From assembly GCF_013371465.1 (NCBI RefSeq), contig NZ_JABWDU010000006.1:186001-250000 (forward strand): 64,000 nt of DNA, written 5' to 3'. Source of the stretch: Ensifer oleiphilus. Its GTDB lineage: Bacteria; Pseudomonadota; Alphaproteobacteria; Rhizobiales; Rhizobiaceae. Of this stretch, positions 46,740 through 53,819 are shown piece by piece; the first letter of the stretch is position 1; each line of letters begins with the position of its first letter. The notes under the pieces were generated by a model that saw only the letters and a program-made list of their open reading frames with translations, did no database searches and was not told where the DNA came from. The translations under genes were made by a program, and so were the position numbers.

Positions 46740-46964
46740 TTAACGAAGGAAGAAGAAACCGGCGACGTTGAGAAGGATGAACAGCACCAGCGCGCTGAAG
46801 AAGCCCATGGTGGTGAAGAAAGCTGCCGCCATGGCGATCAGCAGAACCACGCAGAACATCGTGCCGTATTTCGTTGCACTGAGGAAGAAATTGTACGTCT
46901 TCTCATGTTCCGCATAATCCATCGGAGCGCCCATTTCGACCGGTCCAGAATGATGCTCAGCCAT
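46740..46964 (-). CDS. aa3-type cytochrome c oxidase subunit IV
   Basis: This 74-residue protein begins MAEHHSGPVEMGAPMDYAEHEKTYNFFLSATKYGT and has two closely spaced hydrophobic stretches (MFCVVLLIAMAAAFFTTMGFF, ALVLFILLNVAGFFFL). The MDYAEHEKTYNFF segment is the signature of the bacterial aa3 oxidase subunit IV family (Pfam PF07835), a small membrane subunit of the terminal oxidase. GGGAGAATTGGACG is the ribosome site. The other oxidase genes are not here. It lies 340 bases upstream of pntAA on the same strand, perhaps sharing expression. Confidence 0.9.
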   Translation of the reverse strand: MAEHHSGPVEMGAPMDYAEHEKTYNFFLSATKYGTMFCVVLLIAMAAAFFTTMGFFSALVLFILLNVAGFFFLR

Positions 46965-47251: not shown

Positions 47252-48025
47252 CTAGCGGAAAACGGATGTACGATAGGAACGCCCGGAACCGTTCTGCGCG
47301 ATGCGCGCCGTCGGCAGGATCGTCAGAGGCGCGAACGGCACTTCGTGGCGGTCCGCGAACATCAGGCGACGCTCGAACGGCTCGGAATCGAAGATCGGGT
47401 AGCGGTCGAGGATCGAGGGCCGCTGCCCCCTCACCTGCGCGACAAGCAGCGCACCGTCGGCATTGTAGACCCCGAGGTTCTCCCGCTTGGCGACAACGGT
47501 CTCGGACGCAAAGATGCGCTTGTAGAATGCCGCGTGCCGAGGCCGGCAAGCGGTCAGGCAACGATCGGCGGTGAAGTATTCGCACGCCATCGCCACTGGC
47601 CTGAGCGTCAGGTAGGGGAGCGCCCGCATCTCGTCGCCGGTGACGTCAGGATCGACCGCCAACCGGCCGGGATCGACCAGCACCATGCCGGCATCGAGAA
47701 ACACATCGATTTCAGGCGCGAAGATCAGCCCCGAGGTGCTGGCCCTGTGCTCGGGCGTGACGTGATGCACACGCACCGTGCTGACAAGGTTCTCGTCGAG
47801 ATAGATGCCGAAGACATAGGCATGGCTGTCGAAATCGAGATCGTCGATGAGGGTCGAGCCGGTCAACTCCATCAGGTTGACGGCTTTGTAGGCCTTGTAG
47901 CGAAGCCTGGCGATATCCTCCATGTCCTCGCCTGTCTCGACCCGCCGATATTCGACGCGATCGAGAAGAAGCATCAGCTTCTCAGAAAAACTCCCAGGCT
48001 CCGCCCGGTGAAGACCTTCACCCAT
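47252..48025 (-). CDS. FeeM-like N-acyl amino acid synthase (GNAT-fold acyltransferase)
   Basis: This 257-residue cytoplasmic protein begins MGEGLHRAEPGSFSEKLMLLLDRVEYRRVETGEDMEDIARLRYKAYKAVNLM. The order R-x-x-AY near residue 45, DLDFDSHAYVFGIYLDENLVSTVRVHHVTPEHR, and LVDPGRLAVDPDV...LPYLTLRPVAMACEYF matches the FeeM family, which joins acyl chains from acyl carrier protein to amino acids, and is distantly related to autoinducer synthases. The acyl chain and amino acid cannot be read from sequence. The start follows AGGGGCAGGAA. The upstream region has three CtrA-type boxes. Alternative: a related acyltransferase of other specificity. Confidence 0.7.
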   Translation of the reverse strand: MGEGLHRAEPGSFSEKLMLLLDRVEYRRVETGEDMEDIARLRYKAYKAVNLMELTGSTLIDDLDFDSHAYVFGIYLDENLVSTVRVHHVTPEHRASTSGLIFAPEIDVFLDAGMVLVDPGRLAVDPDVTGDEMRALPYLTLRPVAMACEYFTADRCLTACRPRHAAFYKRIFASETVVAKRENLGVYNADGALLVAQVRGQRPSILDRYPIFDSEPFERRLMFADRHEVPFAPLTILPTARIAQNGSGRSYRTSVFR

Positions 48026-48041
48026 TTCCTGCCCCTCATAG

Positions 48042-48056
48042 TTAACAAATCGTTAA
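48042..48056. promoter_or_regulatory. CtrA-type box 1 (TTAA-N7-TTAA)
   Basis: TTAA at 48042-48045 and TTAAC at 48053-48057 are separated by exactly seven bases, the spacing of the alphaproteobacterial cell-cycle regulator CtrA. It starts 16 bases upstream of the FeeM-like ATG, a position suited to repression. Confidence 0.6.
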
Positions 48057-48105
48057 CCTATTGACGGGCGGCCGAGCGGCAACAACAAAATGGCACAACT
48101 TGCCT

Positions 48106-48120
48106 TTAACTTATTGTTAA
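48106..48120. promoter_or_regulatory. CtrA-type box 2 (TTAA-N7-TTAA)
   Basis: TTAAC at 48106-48110 and TTAAC at 48117-48121, again seven bases between TTAA units, about 80 bases upstream of the FeeM-like start. Confidence 0.6.
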
Positions 48121-48122
48121 CC

Positions 48123-48137
48123 TTAATATTTCGTTAA
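48123..48137. promoter_or_regulatory. CtrA-type box 3 (TTAA-N7-TTAA)
   Basis: TTAA at 48123-48126 and 48134-48137, separated by seven bases and only two bases beyond box 2, so boxes 2 and 3 could bind adjacent CtrA dimers. A further half site TTAACC lies at 48147-48152. Confidence 0.6.
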
Positions 48138-48253
48138 TTTCTTTGGTTAACCGAACGTTGCATTGAGGGCTGCGCTGGGCTCTGCAGGCGGCAACTCAAG
48201 GCTTGCACCGAGAATGGGGGAAAAGGACCGAACGAAGGCGCTCTGCGCGCGTG

Positions 48254-50563
48254 TCAGGCGATGCGCTTGCTCGTCGGCGTGGCGACCGGTTTCTGGACAC
48301 CATTGGTGCAGAATGCCTCGATGGCGGAGGCGGGCATGGGCGCTGCGAACAGAAAACCCTGTATCAGATCGGCACATTGGTAGTCATTGATCAGCTGCAG
48401 CTGATCCGCCGTCTCGACACCTTCGACGACGATCTTCAGGCCCAGAGCACGACCGAGGTTGGCCGTGCCGCGCAGCAGCTTGAAGCGGCGCGAATCCTCG
48501 CGAATGTTGCGCACGAACGAACGATCGATCTTGATGATGTTGACCGGCAGCACGTCGAGGTAGCTGAGGCTGGAATAGCCGGTGCCGAAATCGTCGATGG
48601 CGATGGTTATGCCGCTGTCGCGCAGCTCGCCAAGAATGGCCTGCACTTTCGCCGGTTCATCCATCAGGCAGCTTTCGGTGACCTCAAGATGCAGACGCGA
48701 GGCATCGAGACCGGTCGCCTGAAGCGTGTCTGCCACCACGGTGACGATGTCATTGCTGCGCAGATCGAGCACGGAAAGGTTGACGGAAACGGAAACGTGG
48801 CTCGGCCAGCTCATGCAGTCTCGGCAAGCCTGCTCCAGCGCGAAGCGCGTGATCTCCGTGACGAGGCCCAGCTCCTCGGCAAGCTGGATGAAGACGTTCG
48901 GCGGCACTGGCCCGCGCTCGGGATGTGTCCAGCGCGCCAGAGCCTCGCAGCATTCGAGGCGCGCGCCGTTCGGCGTGAACATCGGCTGGTAGGAAAGCGT
49001 CAACGCACCGGCATTGATCGCGTCGCGCAGGTCACTCTTCAGCTTCTGCCGGTCGAGATAGCGCGCATCCATCTCGTCTTCGAATACGGTGCAACCACCC
49101 TTGTTGCGCGCCTTGGTTTCCGACAGGGCCAGATCAGCCTTGATCTGCAGCTCTTCCAGCCGGAAGGCGCTGCTCGGCACCAGAACGACGCCGGCGCTCA
49201 TCGTCATGTTGAAGGTGAAGCCACCAGCCAGATAGGCGCCACGCATTCCCGCATGGACCGCGCGCATCTCGTCTTCGAGATCAGGCGAATGCATCCGGTT
49301 CGGGAAGAAGACAACGAACTCGTCGCCCATCAGCCGGGCGGCGATCGCCGTATTGCCAACCAATGTCTTCAACCGCCCGGCTATCGCCTGCAGCAACCGG
49401 TCGCCGACGATGTGGCCGCGCATATCGTTGACATGCTTGAACTCGGCGACGTCAAGCACCATCAGGCCGACTTCGACGTCGCCCTTTCCTTCGAGCGCCA
49501 CGGCGTTATGCGCAAGTTCGGCGAAGTAGTCGCGGCTCGGCAGACCGGTCAGCGTGTCGAAGCGAACCATCTGCAGGATCTGCCTGTCGGCCTGCACGCG
49601 CGCGGTCACGTCCTCGAAAATCAGCACGACCTCACCGTTTTCGTGCCGACCGGCGGAAAACTCGAGAAAGAGGTCATTGGTAACCGGCACCAGAACCTGG
49701 GTCTTCTTGCCCTTGATCAACAGGTCGAGCTGCCGCGATATCGCGCGCGTCTCTTCGACGCTCAGCGACATGCGGCGCACACCGCGACGCACGACGTCGT
49801 CCAGCAACCGATCCCTGAGATCAGCCTTGTCGCCGAGCATCAGCAACGCGCAGGCGCGCTCATTGGCAACCACGATCCGGTTGTCGCGGTCGAGCATAAG
49901 CAGCCCGTGCGTCATGTTGTTGAGCGCGGCATCGAACTGGCCGGCAATCGTGGCGATCTCGCGGGCGGCCAGCACGTTTTCATAGAGAAACGCGCGCACA
50001 TTGTTGGCCATCATCCAGGTCGAGAAGATGAAGGGCAGGATCAGAACCGCGAGGATCAGCATGAAGGGATCCTGCAGCGTGATCAGCCCGATCACGATCG
50101 GCAGGCAGGCGGACGAGGACAGAAGCAGCACCGCGCGTTCGGAGCCGTAGTTTCGCCCGACCAGCGAGATCATCGAGGCGAGCGTCACGGAGATGCAGGC
50201 AAGCTCCGAGAAAGAATCCTGACTGACGGCAATCGCATAGCCGCAGGCAATCCCGCAGGTGAGTGTCACGCTGACACCGCCGAGAATGTAGCGGTTCTCC
50301 CATTTCCTAACCGTCGCCCGGTCGGCGTTGGAGAAATCCTGGCGATCGAAGCGCGCCATGTCGAGGTTGCGCAAGACCCAGAGCACGACGATGGCTGCAG
50401 TGCAGATGAGATAGAGCGGATCGGAAGTCTTGAGATAGACGAGCGCGAAAGTCACGACATGCGACAGCATGCCGATCAGCAGAGTCCTGCGATGTTCGTA
50501 GAGCGAGCTCACAGACGACAGATAGACATCCGTCGGTAGAGCGCCCCGTTCATTGCGCGTCAT
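48254..50563 (-). CDS. Membrane GGDEF-EAL protein, probable c-di-GMP phosphodiesterase
   Basis: This 769-residue protein has an N-terminal membrane region (residues 1-190, some six helices, e.g. LIGMLSHVVTFALVYL and LACISVTLASMISLVG), a PAS-like segment near 200-310, a GGDEF domain (FDTLTGLPSRDYFAELAHN) whose signature is degenerate (RLMGDEF), then an EAL domain with ECCEALARW, LEVTES, IAIDDFGTGYSSLSYL, IKIDRSFV and VVEGVET. The catalytic EAL residues are present, while the GGDEF loop lacks its first glycine and an RxxD site, so degradation of c-di-GMP is the more likely activity. It lies upstream of the FeeM-like gene on the same strand, 228 bases apart. Confidence 0.9.
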   Translation of the reverse strand: MTRNERGALPTDVYLSSVSSLYEHRRTLLIGMLSHVVTFALVYLKTSDPLYLICTAAIVVLWVLRNLDMARFDRQDFSNADRATVRKWENRYILGGVSVTLTCGIACGYAIAVSQDSFSELACISVTLASMISLVGRNYGSERAVLLLSSSACLPIVIGLITLQDPFMLILAVLILPFIFSTWMMANNVRAFLYENVLAAREIATIAGQFDAALNNMTHGLLMLDRDNRIVVANERACALLMLGDKADLRDRLLDDVVRRGVRRMSLSVEETRAISRQLDLLIKGKKTQVLVPVTNDLFLEFSAGRHENGEVVLIFEDVTARVQADRQILQMVRFDTLTGLPSRDYFAELAHNAVALEGKGDVEVGLMVLDVAEFKHVNDMRGHIVGDRLLQAIAGRLKTLVGNTAIAARLMGDEFVVFFPNRMHSPDLEDEMRAVHAGMRGAYLAGGFTFNMTMSAGVVLVPSSAFRLEELQIKADLALSETKARNKGGCTVFEDEMDARYLDRQKLKSDLRDAINAGALTLSYQPMFTPNGARLECCEALARWTHPERGPVPPNVFIQLAEELGLVTEITRFALEQACRDCMSWPSHVSVSVNLSVLDLRSNDIVTVVADTLQATGLDASRLHLEVTESCLMDEPAKVQAILGELRDSGITIAIDDFGTGYSSLSYLDVLPVNIIKIDRSFVRNIREDSRRFKLLRGTANLGRALGLKIVVEGVETADQLQLINDYQCADLIQGFLFAAPMPASAIEAFCTNGVQKPVATPTSKRIA

Positions 50564-52732: not shown

Positions 52733-53755
52733 TCAGGCGGGGACGCGCAACGGTCCGGTGGACTGGCGGATGCGCATTTCCGGCTTGATCAGGTGGATGC
52801 CATCAGGCTCGTGGCTGCCGGACAACTTGTCGAGAAGCGCGCGGGCAGCACTCCGGCCGACATCGGCCTGGCCGTTCCAGACGGTGGTCAAAGCCGGCGT
52901 CGCGATCGACGCCTCCTCAAGATCGTCATAGCCGGTGACGGAGATATCGACGCCGGGGACAAGCCCCGCACGCGCGATGCCGTTCATCATGCCGATCGCC
53001 ACCAGATCGTTCCAGCAGACGACCGCGGTCGGCTTCTGCGGCAGCGACAAGAGATGCACCGCCGCCTCGAAGCCACCCTGCTTGGAGCGCGGGCCGGGAA
53101 TTCGCAGCTCCGGATCCACCTCGATATTGGCCTTGCGCAGCGCGTTGACGTAGCCTTGATAGCGGTCACGACCGGTCGACGTCTGGTCGGTGCCGCCGAC
53201 CATGGCGATACAGCGGTGCCCAAGGCCGATCAGATGGTTGGTCGCCAGCGAGATGCCATAGGCATCGTCGCCGCGGAAGATCGGCACGTCGAGCCCCTCG
53301 ATCGAGCGGGCGATCAGGATCGCCGGCATGCCATTGTCCTCGGCAAGCTGGATATCCTCCGGCGGGGTGCCGATGGCCGGCGACATGATGACGCCGTCGC
53401 CGCCGAGCTGCAGCAGCGTCTCGATGAAATCGCGCTGCTTGTCGACCGAGTCGTAATGGTTGGAAAGAATGAAGGTCTGCTTGTCGCGGTCGAGTTCCGC
53501 TTCGATCGCCTTCAGGATTTCCCCGTAGAACGGGTTCATGATGTCGTGCACGACGACACCGATAATGCCGGAGCGCGAGGTCCTGAGGCTGGCGGCGCGG
53601 CGGTTGTAGATGTAGCCGAGCGCGCGGGCCTGCTCCTTGATCTTGTCGCGGGTGAGGGTCGCCACCAGGGGACTGTCACGCAATGCCAGAGATACCGTCG
53701 CCGTCGAAAGACCGAGTGTTTCCGCGATCGTCGAAAGCTTGACCTTTTGCGCCAC
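52733..53755 (-). CDS. LacI-family transcriptional regulator
   Basis: This 340-residue repressor begins MAQKVKLSTIAETLGLSTATVSLALRDSPLV, with a typical LacI helix-turn-helix and hinge (RDKIKEQARALGYIYNRRAASLRTSRSGIIGVVV). The rest is a periplasmic-binding-protein-like effector domain (NPFYGEILKAIEAEL, SVTGYDDLEEASIATPALTTV). It lies just upstream of the 2-hydroxyacid dehydrogenase and has a perfect AT-rich palindrome 48 bases upstream. It probably represses itself and the dehydrogenase in response to a sugar or sugar acid not identifiable here. Confidence 0.93.
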   Translation of the reverse strand: MAQKVKLSTIAETLGLSTATVSLALRDSPLVATLTRDKIKEQARALGYIYNRRAASLRTSRSGIIGVVVHDIMNPFYGEILKAIEAELDRDKQTFILSNHYDSVDKQRDFIETLLQLGGDGVIMSPAIGTPPEDIQLAEDNGMPAILIARSIEGLDVPIFRGDDAYGISLATNHLIGLGHRCIAMVGGTDQTSTGRDRYQGYVNALRKANIEVDPELRIPGPRSKQGGFEAAVHLLSLPQKPTAVVCWNDLVAIGMMNGIARAGLVPGVDISVTGYDDLEEASIATPALTTVWNGQADVGRSAARALLDKLSGSHEPDGIHLIKPEMRIRQSTGPLRVPA

Positions 53756-53802
53756 GATGCCCCCTGCTTAAGCCTAGTTGCCTACCCTCAAATTTAAATC
53801 CT

Positions 53803-53819
53803 ATTTAAACTGTTTAAAT
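53803..53819. promoter_or_regulatory. Candidate LacI-type operator
   Basis: ATTTAAAC-T-GTTTAAAT is a perfect 17-base palindrome, with a related AATTTAAAT segment at 53791-53799. It lacks the central CG of classic LacI-family operators, but its position upstream of the regulator suits autoregulation. Confidence 0.55.

Follow-up and report, generated by a model that had tools for sequence, protein, structure and literature searches.

The feeM locus

The window, i.e., the whole stretch of 64,000 nucleotides that was analyzed, carried on its reverse strand a feeM-like gene (47252..48025) coding for a protein of 257 amino acids with a GNAT/LuxI-like fold, as identified from the open reading frame list, the Pfam family PF21926 and an AlphaFold model. 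The preliminary description had given this gene the span 47252-48152; the coding sequence was confirmed for 47252-48025 on the reverse strand, while the rest (48026-48152, same strand) is the stretch 5' of the coding sequence and corresponds to the feeM promoter region. The feeM start codon was separated by 228 bases from the stop codon of a gene of the same strand (48254..50563) encoding a GGDEF-EAL protein of 769 amino acids (Pfam and motif search), the usual upstream partner of feeM. This gap was AT-rich for this genome (GC of 0.48 in 48000-48199) and displayed, within 96 bases, three exact TTAA-N7-TTAA matches on the reverse strand: a proximal CtrA-type box TTAACGATTTGTTAA at 48042..48056 (-31 from the ATG) and two distal ones, TTAACAATAAGTTAA at 48106..48120 (-95) and TTAACGAAATATTAA at 48123..48137 (-112). 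A half site, GTTAACC, was located at 48146..48152 (reverse strand), where four other loci (L002, L003, L005 and L016) had a full box at -136. The three boxes (at 48042, 48106 and 48123) and the extra half site were all found as previously described.

Between the boxes, an alignment of 26 close loci displayed a conserved segment (TTTTGNNGTTGC ... TCAATAGG; 48057..48090, reverse strand), which on sequence grounds may be considered a candidate promoter core. Scanning the feeM region for E. coli-type sigma-70 promoters, with an E. coli model, returned none. Two terminator-like sites were seen (0.6 expected), one of them between the EAL and feeM genes.

Genes coding for an oxidase subunit and for pyridine nucleotide transhydrogenase were found downstream of feeM (Pfam), the former being the aa3-type cytochrome oxidase subunit IV gene (cox4; 46740..46964, reverse strand). 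The upstream side encompassed the GGDEF-EAL gene, a C26 peptidase and a 2-hydroxyacid dehydrogenase (Pfam). Some known FeeM members are linked to carrier-protein or exosortase neighbours; no carrier protein, acyltransferase or exosortase was encoded among the nine neighbour genes scanned here. The named loci at 98-99% protein identity belonged to Ensifer adhaerens (two loci), Ensifer sp. LC163, Sinorhizobium sp. A49 and one Rhizobiales isolate.

Family and fold of the FeeM-like protein

The feeM-like protein matched the Pfam FeeM profile (PF21926) with 137.2 bits for a cut-off of 27, over positions 1-156 of the 158 of the profile, and was the only match of its genome over this cut-off, which FeeM matches passed in 19 of 200 genomes of the phylum. 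Membership in the OlsB-type family (PF13444) was rejected, as the score of 14.7 bits fell below the cut-off of 22.4, and membership in the AHL synthases (LuxI) was rejected as well, since searches of Pfam and NCBIfam with E values up to 1 gave no LuxI-type family. OlsB, the ornithine-lipid N-acyltransferase, joins acyl-ACP to an amino acid (PMC11631085); it shares its superfamily with the feeM-like protein, which the score below the OlsB cut-off sets apart.

The AlphaFold model, built from 54 sequences (53 of the 80 named relatives, plus the window protein minus its first Met), reached a mean pLDDT of 85.6. Its best PDB match was FeeM (2g0b), with a Foldseek E of 9.4e-12 and, for this predicted model, a Z of 19.0 over 179 residues at 2.7 A and 17-18% identity; the next fold match was the AHL synthase RpaI (Z of 14.5), with GNATs at 14.5 and below. 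An alignment of 12 orthologue sequences contained 27 invariant columns, and the profile of these 12 orthologues retrieved by sequence no PDB chain at E up to 1; the characterised FeeM is thus distant and its substrate not transferable. Profile and predicted fold together placed the protein in the FeeM family, as the preliminary description had proposed, although the common fold does not reveal the substrate. FeeM and the window protein have in common the Pfam family and the fold, but they differ by their low identity and by the conserved pairing, here, with a c-di-GMP enzyme behind CtrA-type boxes. FeeM-type synthases have been described mainly from environmental DNA, and the roles of their products in producer cells are poorly known.

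CtrA-type boxes in the window and in the genome

TTAA-N7-TTAA is the CtrA consensus, and the genome encoded a CtrA (426 bits for a cut-off of 350, model NF045991 RespRegCtrARhodob). Exact matches amounted to 4 in the window, where 0.03 were expected from shuffles, and to 43 in the whole genome (6,760,225 bases) against 30 for the reversed control pattern, so that a lone match means little. The feeM promoter was the sole place of the genome with at least two exact boxes inside 100 bp, the next closest pair lying 174 bp apart. The stricter form TTAAC-N5-GTTAA fitted 12 of the 43 genome matches, including two before feeM, and two of the three feeM boxes shared their C and G flanks with the genome's minC and flagellin sites.

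The boxes had been described as lying upstream of this gene only, which did not hold for the window, as a fourth exact match (TTAAATCCTATTTAA) was found at 53794-53808. This match had neither C nor G beside its half-sites. The sequence around it was palindromic and AT-rich, with TTTAAA repeated, and bordered a gene for a LacI-family regulator (52733-53755). The match was set aside as a CtrA box on account of this setting, and is probably an operator. No box was detected upstream of the GGDEF-EAL gene within the window, even with one mismatch allowed.

Conservation of the boxes among feeM orthologues

The orthologues were drawn from three sets (30 loci, 80 named loci and 80 fetched regions). 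L031-L035 were dropped, as were loci identical to another over the 200 bp upstream, which left 169. The fetched regions represented part of the 138 matched family genomes, mostly one per genus; one came from another family, and two genomes had a second match. Nine further loci brought the set to 178, L222 being left uncounted (no tblastn match).

Two or more exact boxes were present in all of the 26 distinct loci sharing at least 85% protein identity. Between 55 and 70% identity, 45 of 58 loci had one or more exact boxes, and an exact box occurred in 8 of 22 loci at 45-55% and in 24 of 63 below 45%. Conservation at orthologues, which the preliminary description had named as a check, held in close relatives and was partial in distant clades, weakening with distance. 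The gene and downstream sequences of the 169 loci, used as a control (371,597 bp), contained no exact box, and single-base shuffles of the 26 close upstream regions left a mean of 0.1 loci with a box, compared with all 26 in the real sequences. A survey of 20 Sinorhizobium upstream regions, partly from the same organisms, returned a box in every region and two or more in 19; L246 had one box only, the -95 box being missing, and the -31 box was not exact in two to three of the 20 (L241 and L244 by name). Four of the nine added loci had an exact box and five had none. One exact box stood before feeM in each of three genomes of another family (L218-L220), and also in L221.

The spacing of seven bases stood out after dereplication. 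At 80% protein identity (90 loci), the exact N7 form occurred in 44 loci and each of nine other spacings between 3 and 12 in 1-5; at 70% (68 loci), N7 occurred in 34 and the other spacings in 1-6. The contrast was weaker when one mismatch was allowed over the 178 loci (N7 in 162, N6 in 110, other spacings in 54-96), and 16 of the 178 had no box even so. Once aligned, the 26 close loci agreed at each of the sixteen half-site bases of the -95 and -31 boxes, while the box spacers were conserved at 84-85% and the bases outside the boxes at 68%; random draws of 16 columns never reached this invariance in 100,000 trials. The -112 box was full in 14 of these 26 loci. Number and position of the boxes drifted between clades, while the spacing stayed.

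The tandem double box

The -112 and -95 boxes were two bases apart, which brought four TTAA into a 17-bp phase (tandem double box). In the genome of the window, the exact double box was found only at the feeM promoter. It was present in 6 of 199 family genomes and in 18 of 33 Sinorhizobium genomes, once in each, and all 23 distinct double boxes (one genome belonging to both sets) were by their coordinates directly upstream of the feeM match. The 13 Sinorhizobium genomes in which feeM had no match contained none, and the reversed control pattern occurred in one of the 199 family genomes and in none of the 33 Sinorhizobium genomes. Of the 138 family genomes that had feeM, the remaining 132 contained no exact double box.

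TTAA pairs at spacing 2 were distributed over all identity groups (17/26 loci at 85% and above, 50/58 at 55-70%, 12/22 at 45-55% and 41/63 below 45%). Such a pair is the centre of the tandem double box (TTAANNTTAA). As spacing 2 was found in more loci than spacing 7 in the three distant groups, the best-kept distant element was this centre and not the whole CtrA box. Around kept centres, outer half-sites were scanned as TTAA-like stretches (three of four bases or better) at gaps 3 to 12. Outer half-sites on both sides peaked at gap 7 (17/17, 13/50, 2/12 and 18/46 loci, in the order of falling identity), with at most 6 loci at any other gap. On at least one side, gap 7 was found in 17, 34, 7 and 43 loci; its rivals were gaps 10 and 11 at 55-70% identity (23 and 30 of 50) and gap 6 below 45% (34 of 46). 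These patterns suggest that what distant relatives keep is a degenerate form of the double box.

The GGDEF-EAL partner and the genomes without feeM

The GGDEF-EAL protein encompassed PAS, GGDEF and EAL domains (Pfam). Its EAL motif was intact in the window, and its GGDEF motif read MGDEF, as in 54 of the 80 named loci; the same position read VGDEF or IGDEF in 2 loci, nothing in 23, and one locus had no frame. A GGDEF-EAL match was present on the same strand at most 600 bp upstream of feeM in 160 of the 169 loci. Over 199 family genomes, with counts that take no account of relatedness, feeM occurred together with the N-terminal part of the partner in 126 and alone in 12, the partner occurred alone in 5, and 56 had neither. 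The pair was also kept in the three genomes of another family (L218-L220), in whose stretches no match to cox4 or pntA was obtained. The c-di-GMP hint that the preliminary description had drawn from the GGDEF-EAL protein next door was strengthened by this conserved pairing and co-occurrence.

Among 33 Sinorhizobium genomes, 20 harbored feeM (one of them in two pieces) and 25 harbored the N-terminal part of the GGDEF-EAL protein, all 20 being within the 25. Five Sinorhizobium genomes kept EAL, cox4 and pntA, with feeM and the boxes gone. The gap from the last aligned EAL residue to cox4 measured 206-261 bases in these loci against 1289 in the window, and no full box was found in the 4.6-4.7 kb of each; a half site GTTAAC remained in the gap of two of them (L250 and L251). 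As cox4 was present where feeM was missing, it is not part of the module.

The feeM gene appeared in two pieces in a genome of the genus of the window (G015:C1:3155381-3156150) and in a Sinorhizobium genome (G437:C1:2954244-2954977), and the feeM search returned no match in 13 of the 33 Sinorhizobium genomes; feeM is on these grounds dispensable. S. meliloti did not appear among the 80 of 408 named feeM loci used here. Given this and the 13 unmatched genomes of the genus, the S. meliloti model strain may be without feeM. The EAL match was likewise split in two cases, between two frames near the C-terminus in a feeM-less locus (L253 of G441, 187-2498) and in the N-terminal part of the protein in a genome with feeM (G446:C1:638554-639181), which reflects either decay or assembly error.

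Likeness to known CtrA-controlled systems

The boxes before feeM had the same form, in an intergenic promoter, as those of the CtrA regulon of S. meliloti and Caulobacter, and differed from it by the tandem 17-bp double box, the only one in the Ensifer genome. In S. meliloti, CtrA ChIP-seq gave 198 peaks; together with depletion, it identified the fla genes and minCD as directly controlled by CtrA, and the regulon includes envelope, motility and signalling genes, with flaA-C and minCD among them (PMC4433202). The main text of the same paper did not contain the word 'acyl'. CtrA sites have been reported in Dinoroseobacter shibae for luxI2/R2, a locus that encodes an autoinducer synthase (PMC6473078). 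This locus provides a precedent for CtrA and a LuxI-fold synthase together: a CtrA-type site precedes a LuxI-fold acyl-amide synthase and c-di-GMP enzymes belong to the circuit. It differs in that it belongs to another order, encodes an AHL synthase with a LuxR partner for quorum sensing and relies on predicted sites, whereas the window harbored a FeeM family protein with a GGDEF-EAL partner. Further background was provided by PMC2877005, PMC11631085 and PMC11580390.

Both the enzyme family and the regulator are already known. The literature searched contained nothing linking CtrA with FeeM or with 'N-acyl amino acid', in line with the preliminary description, to which no such link was known. 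Within that literature, three features appear to be new: the link between CtrA and feeM, the promoter with its tandem boxes, and the conserved association of feeM with the gene of a c-di-GMP enzyme.

Proposed regulation of feeM and alternative explanations

The results supported the earlier interpretation of the locus, and it is fairly probable that a FeeM-type N-acyl amino acid synthase is under CtrA control here and works with a c-di-GMP phosphodiesterase. CtrA as the binder, the sign of the control, the substrate and product, the cell-cycle timing and the link to c-di-GMP are what we infer here from the features of the locus. The most likely reaction of the FeeM-type enzyme would be the N-acylation of an amino acid, with acyl-carrier protein as the donor of a long acyl chain. 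CtrA would act on feeM transcription through the 228-bp region between feeM and the phosphodiesterase gene and, in Ensifer and Sinorhizobium, would bind the distal double box (about -112 and -95) and the proximal box (-31). As a guess, the distal pair would activate and could recruit polymerase, and the -31 box, which adjoins the conserved TCAATAGG segment and the expected transcription start, would repress or tune. Activation and repression combined might then give a cell-cycle pulse of feeM. This promoter mechanism is a guess, since the scan returned no E. coli-type promoter.

Lower c-di-GMP favours CtrA phosphorylation in Caulobacter. A decrease in c-di-GMP is the probable effect of the partner GGDEF-EAL protein, which could either feed the same CckA-CtrA circuit or act on the same surface or motility output. 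In the former case, lowered c-di-GMP would promote CtrA phosphorylation and form a loop. A broader scheme, put forward with more doubt than trust, would be a module common to the Hyphomicrobiales in which CtrA switches on an N-acyl amino acid once per cell cycle, as a signal or as a membrane lipid of one daughter cell type, and the phosphodiesterase closes a c-di-GMP loop to CckA-CtrA. It would amount to a cell-cycle-timed message, analogous to AHL quorum sensing and separate from it. That such a module is widespread and unstudied in the Hyphomicrobiales is an equally tentative suggestion. A conserved CtrA promoter would tell when the enzyme is made and in which cell type to look for it, and would place its product alongside functions in motility, the envelope and cell division. 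A clean test set is provided by Sinorhizobium, in which some species have the module at this locus and others lack it.

The regulator and the product could each be other than proposed. It is quite unlikely that the boxes are read by a different TTAA half-site binder, perhaps specific to feeM, with CtrA uninvolved. In the genomes searched, every exact double box stood before feeM, as might be expected of a dedicated regulator; distant loci kept the TTAANNTTAA centre more often than the full N7 box, and other AT-rich binders occur in rhizobia. Against such a binder, the feeM boxes matched the consensus and spacing of CtrA, two of the three with the C/G flanks of the minC and flagellin sites; outer half-sites around the kept centre peaked at gap 7, and the spacing was constant while box number and position drifted between clades. 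The only regulator gene among the scanned neighbours was the one of the LacI family, 5 kb off and not adjacent. That the feeM-like protein makes something other than N-acyl amino acids is possible, if doubtful, given that the FeeM profile was matched over its full length and well above the cut-off, and that among the fold matches FeeM came first, clearly ahead of the AHL synthases. An identity of only 17-18% to the solved FeeM, the profile search that returned no PDB match at the sequence level, and the nine scanned neighbour genes, which included neither a carrier protein nor an acyltransferase, leave room for such a product.

Control of feeM through boxes of its own was also weighed against two readings of the boxes themselves. 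EAL and feeM lie on the same strand 228 bp apart, and two of the five feeM-less loci (L250 and L251) kept the half site in the gap, as would fit boxes serving the GGDEF-EAL gene or another transcript of the gap, with feeM transcribed by read-through from EAL. This is very improbable, as the boxes are downstream of the EAL stop codon, and the window had none upstream of EAL even at one mismatch; no full box was left in the 4.6-4.7 kb of the five EAL-only genomes, and the assignment of the boxes to the EAL gene was rejected on that account. Chance or general promoter AT-richness, suggested by the low GC of the gap for this genome, has a negligible probability: spacings outside those of the tandem array (2, 7 and 13) were uncommon in the same upstream regions, shuffles gave a box in 0.1 loci on average against 26 of the 26 close loci, and half-sites were conserved while spacer bases varied. 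A chance origin was rejected by the spacing, shuffle and downstream controls.

Other CtrA-type boxes of the genome

Among the other TTAA-N7-TTAA matches of the genome, 20 of 40 were inspected with their surrounding stretch. Flagellin genes lay near one of them (L201), one starting 155 bp after the box, and another (L205) was inside an overlong frame, 5' of a MinC domain. Two more were near a porin (L216) and near a protein that matched the kinase PdhS only in part and with a score under the cut-off (L211), and the remaining inspected boxes were next to genes without known link or without any family match. The strict form TTAAC-N5-GTTAA was displayed at L207 (G000:C29:1738-3752), L208 (G000:C29:64098-66112) and L199 (G000:C11:187669-189683), near genes coding for a LuxR-type response regulator, an outer-membrane beta-barrel protein and a transglutaminase-like cysteine proteinase, which may be considered, from their boxes, as candidate CtrA targets.
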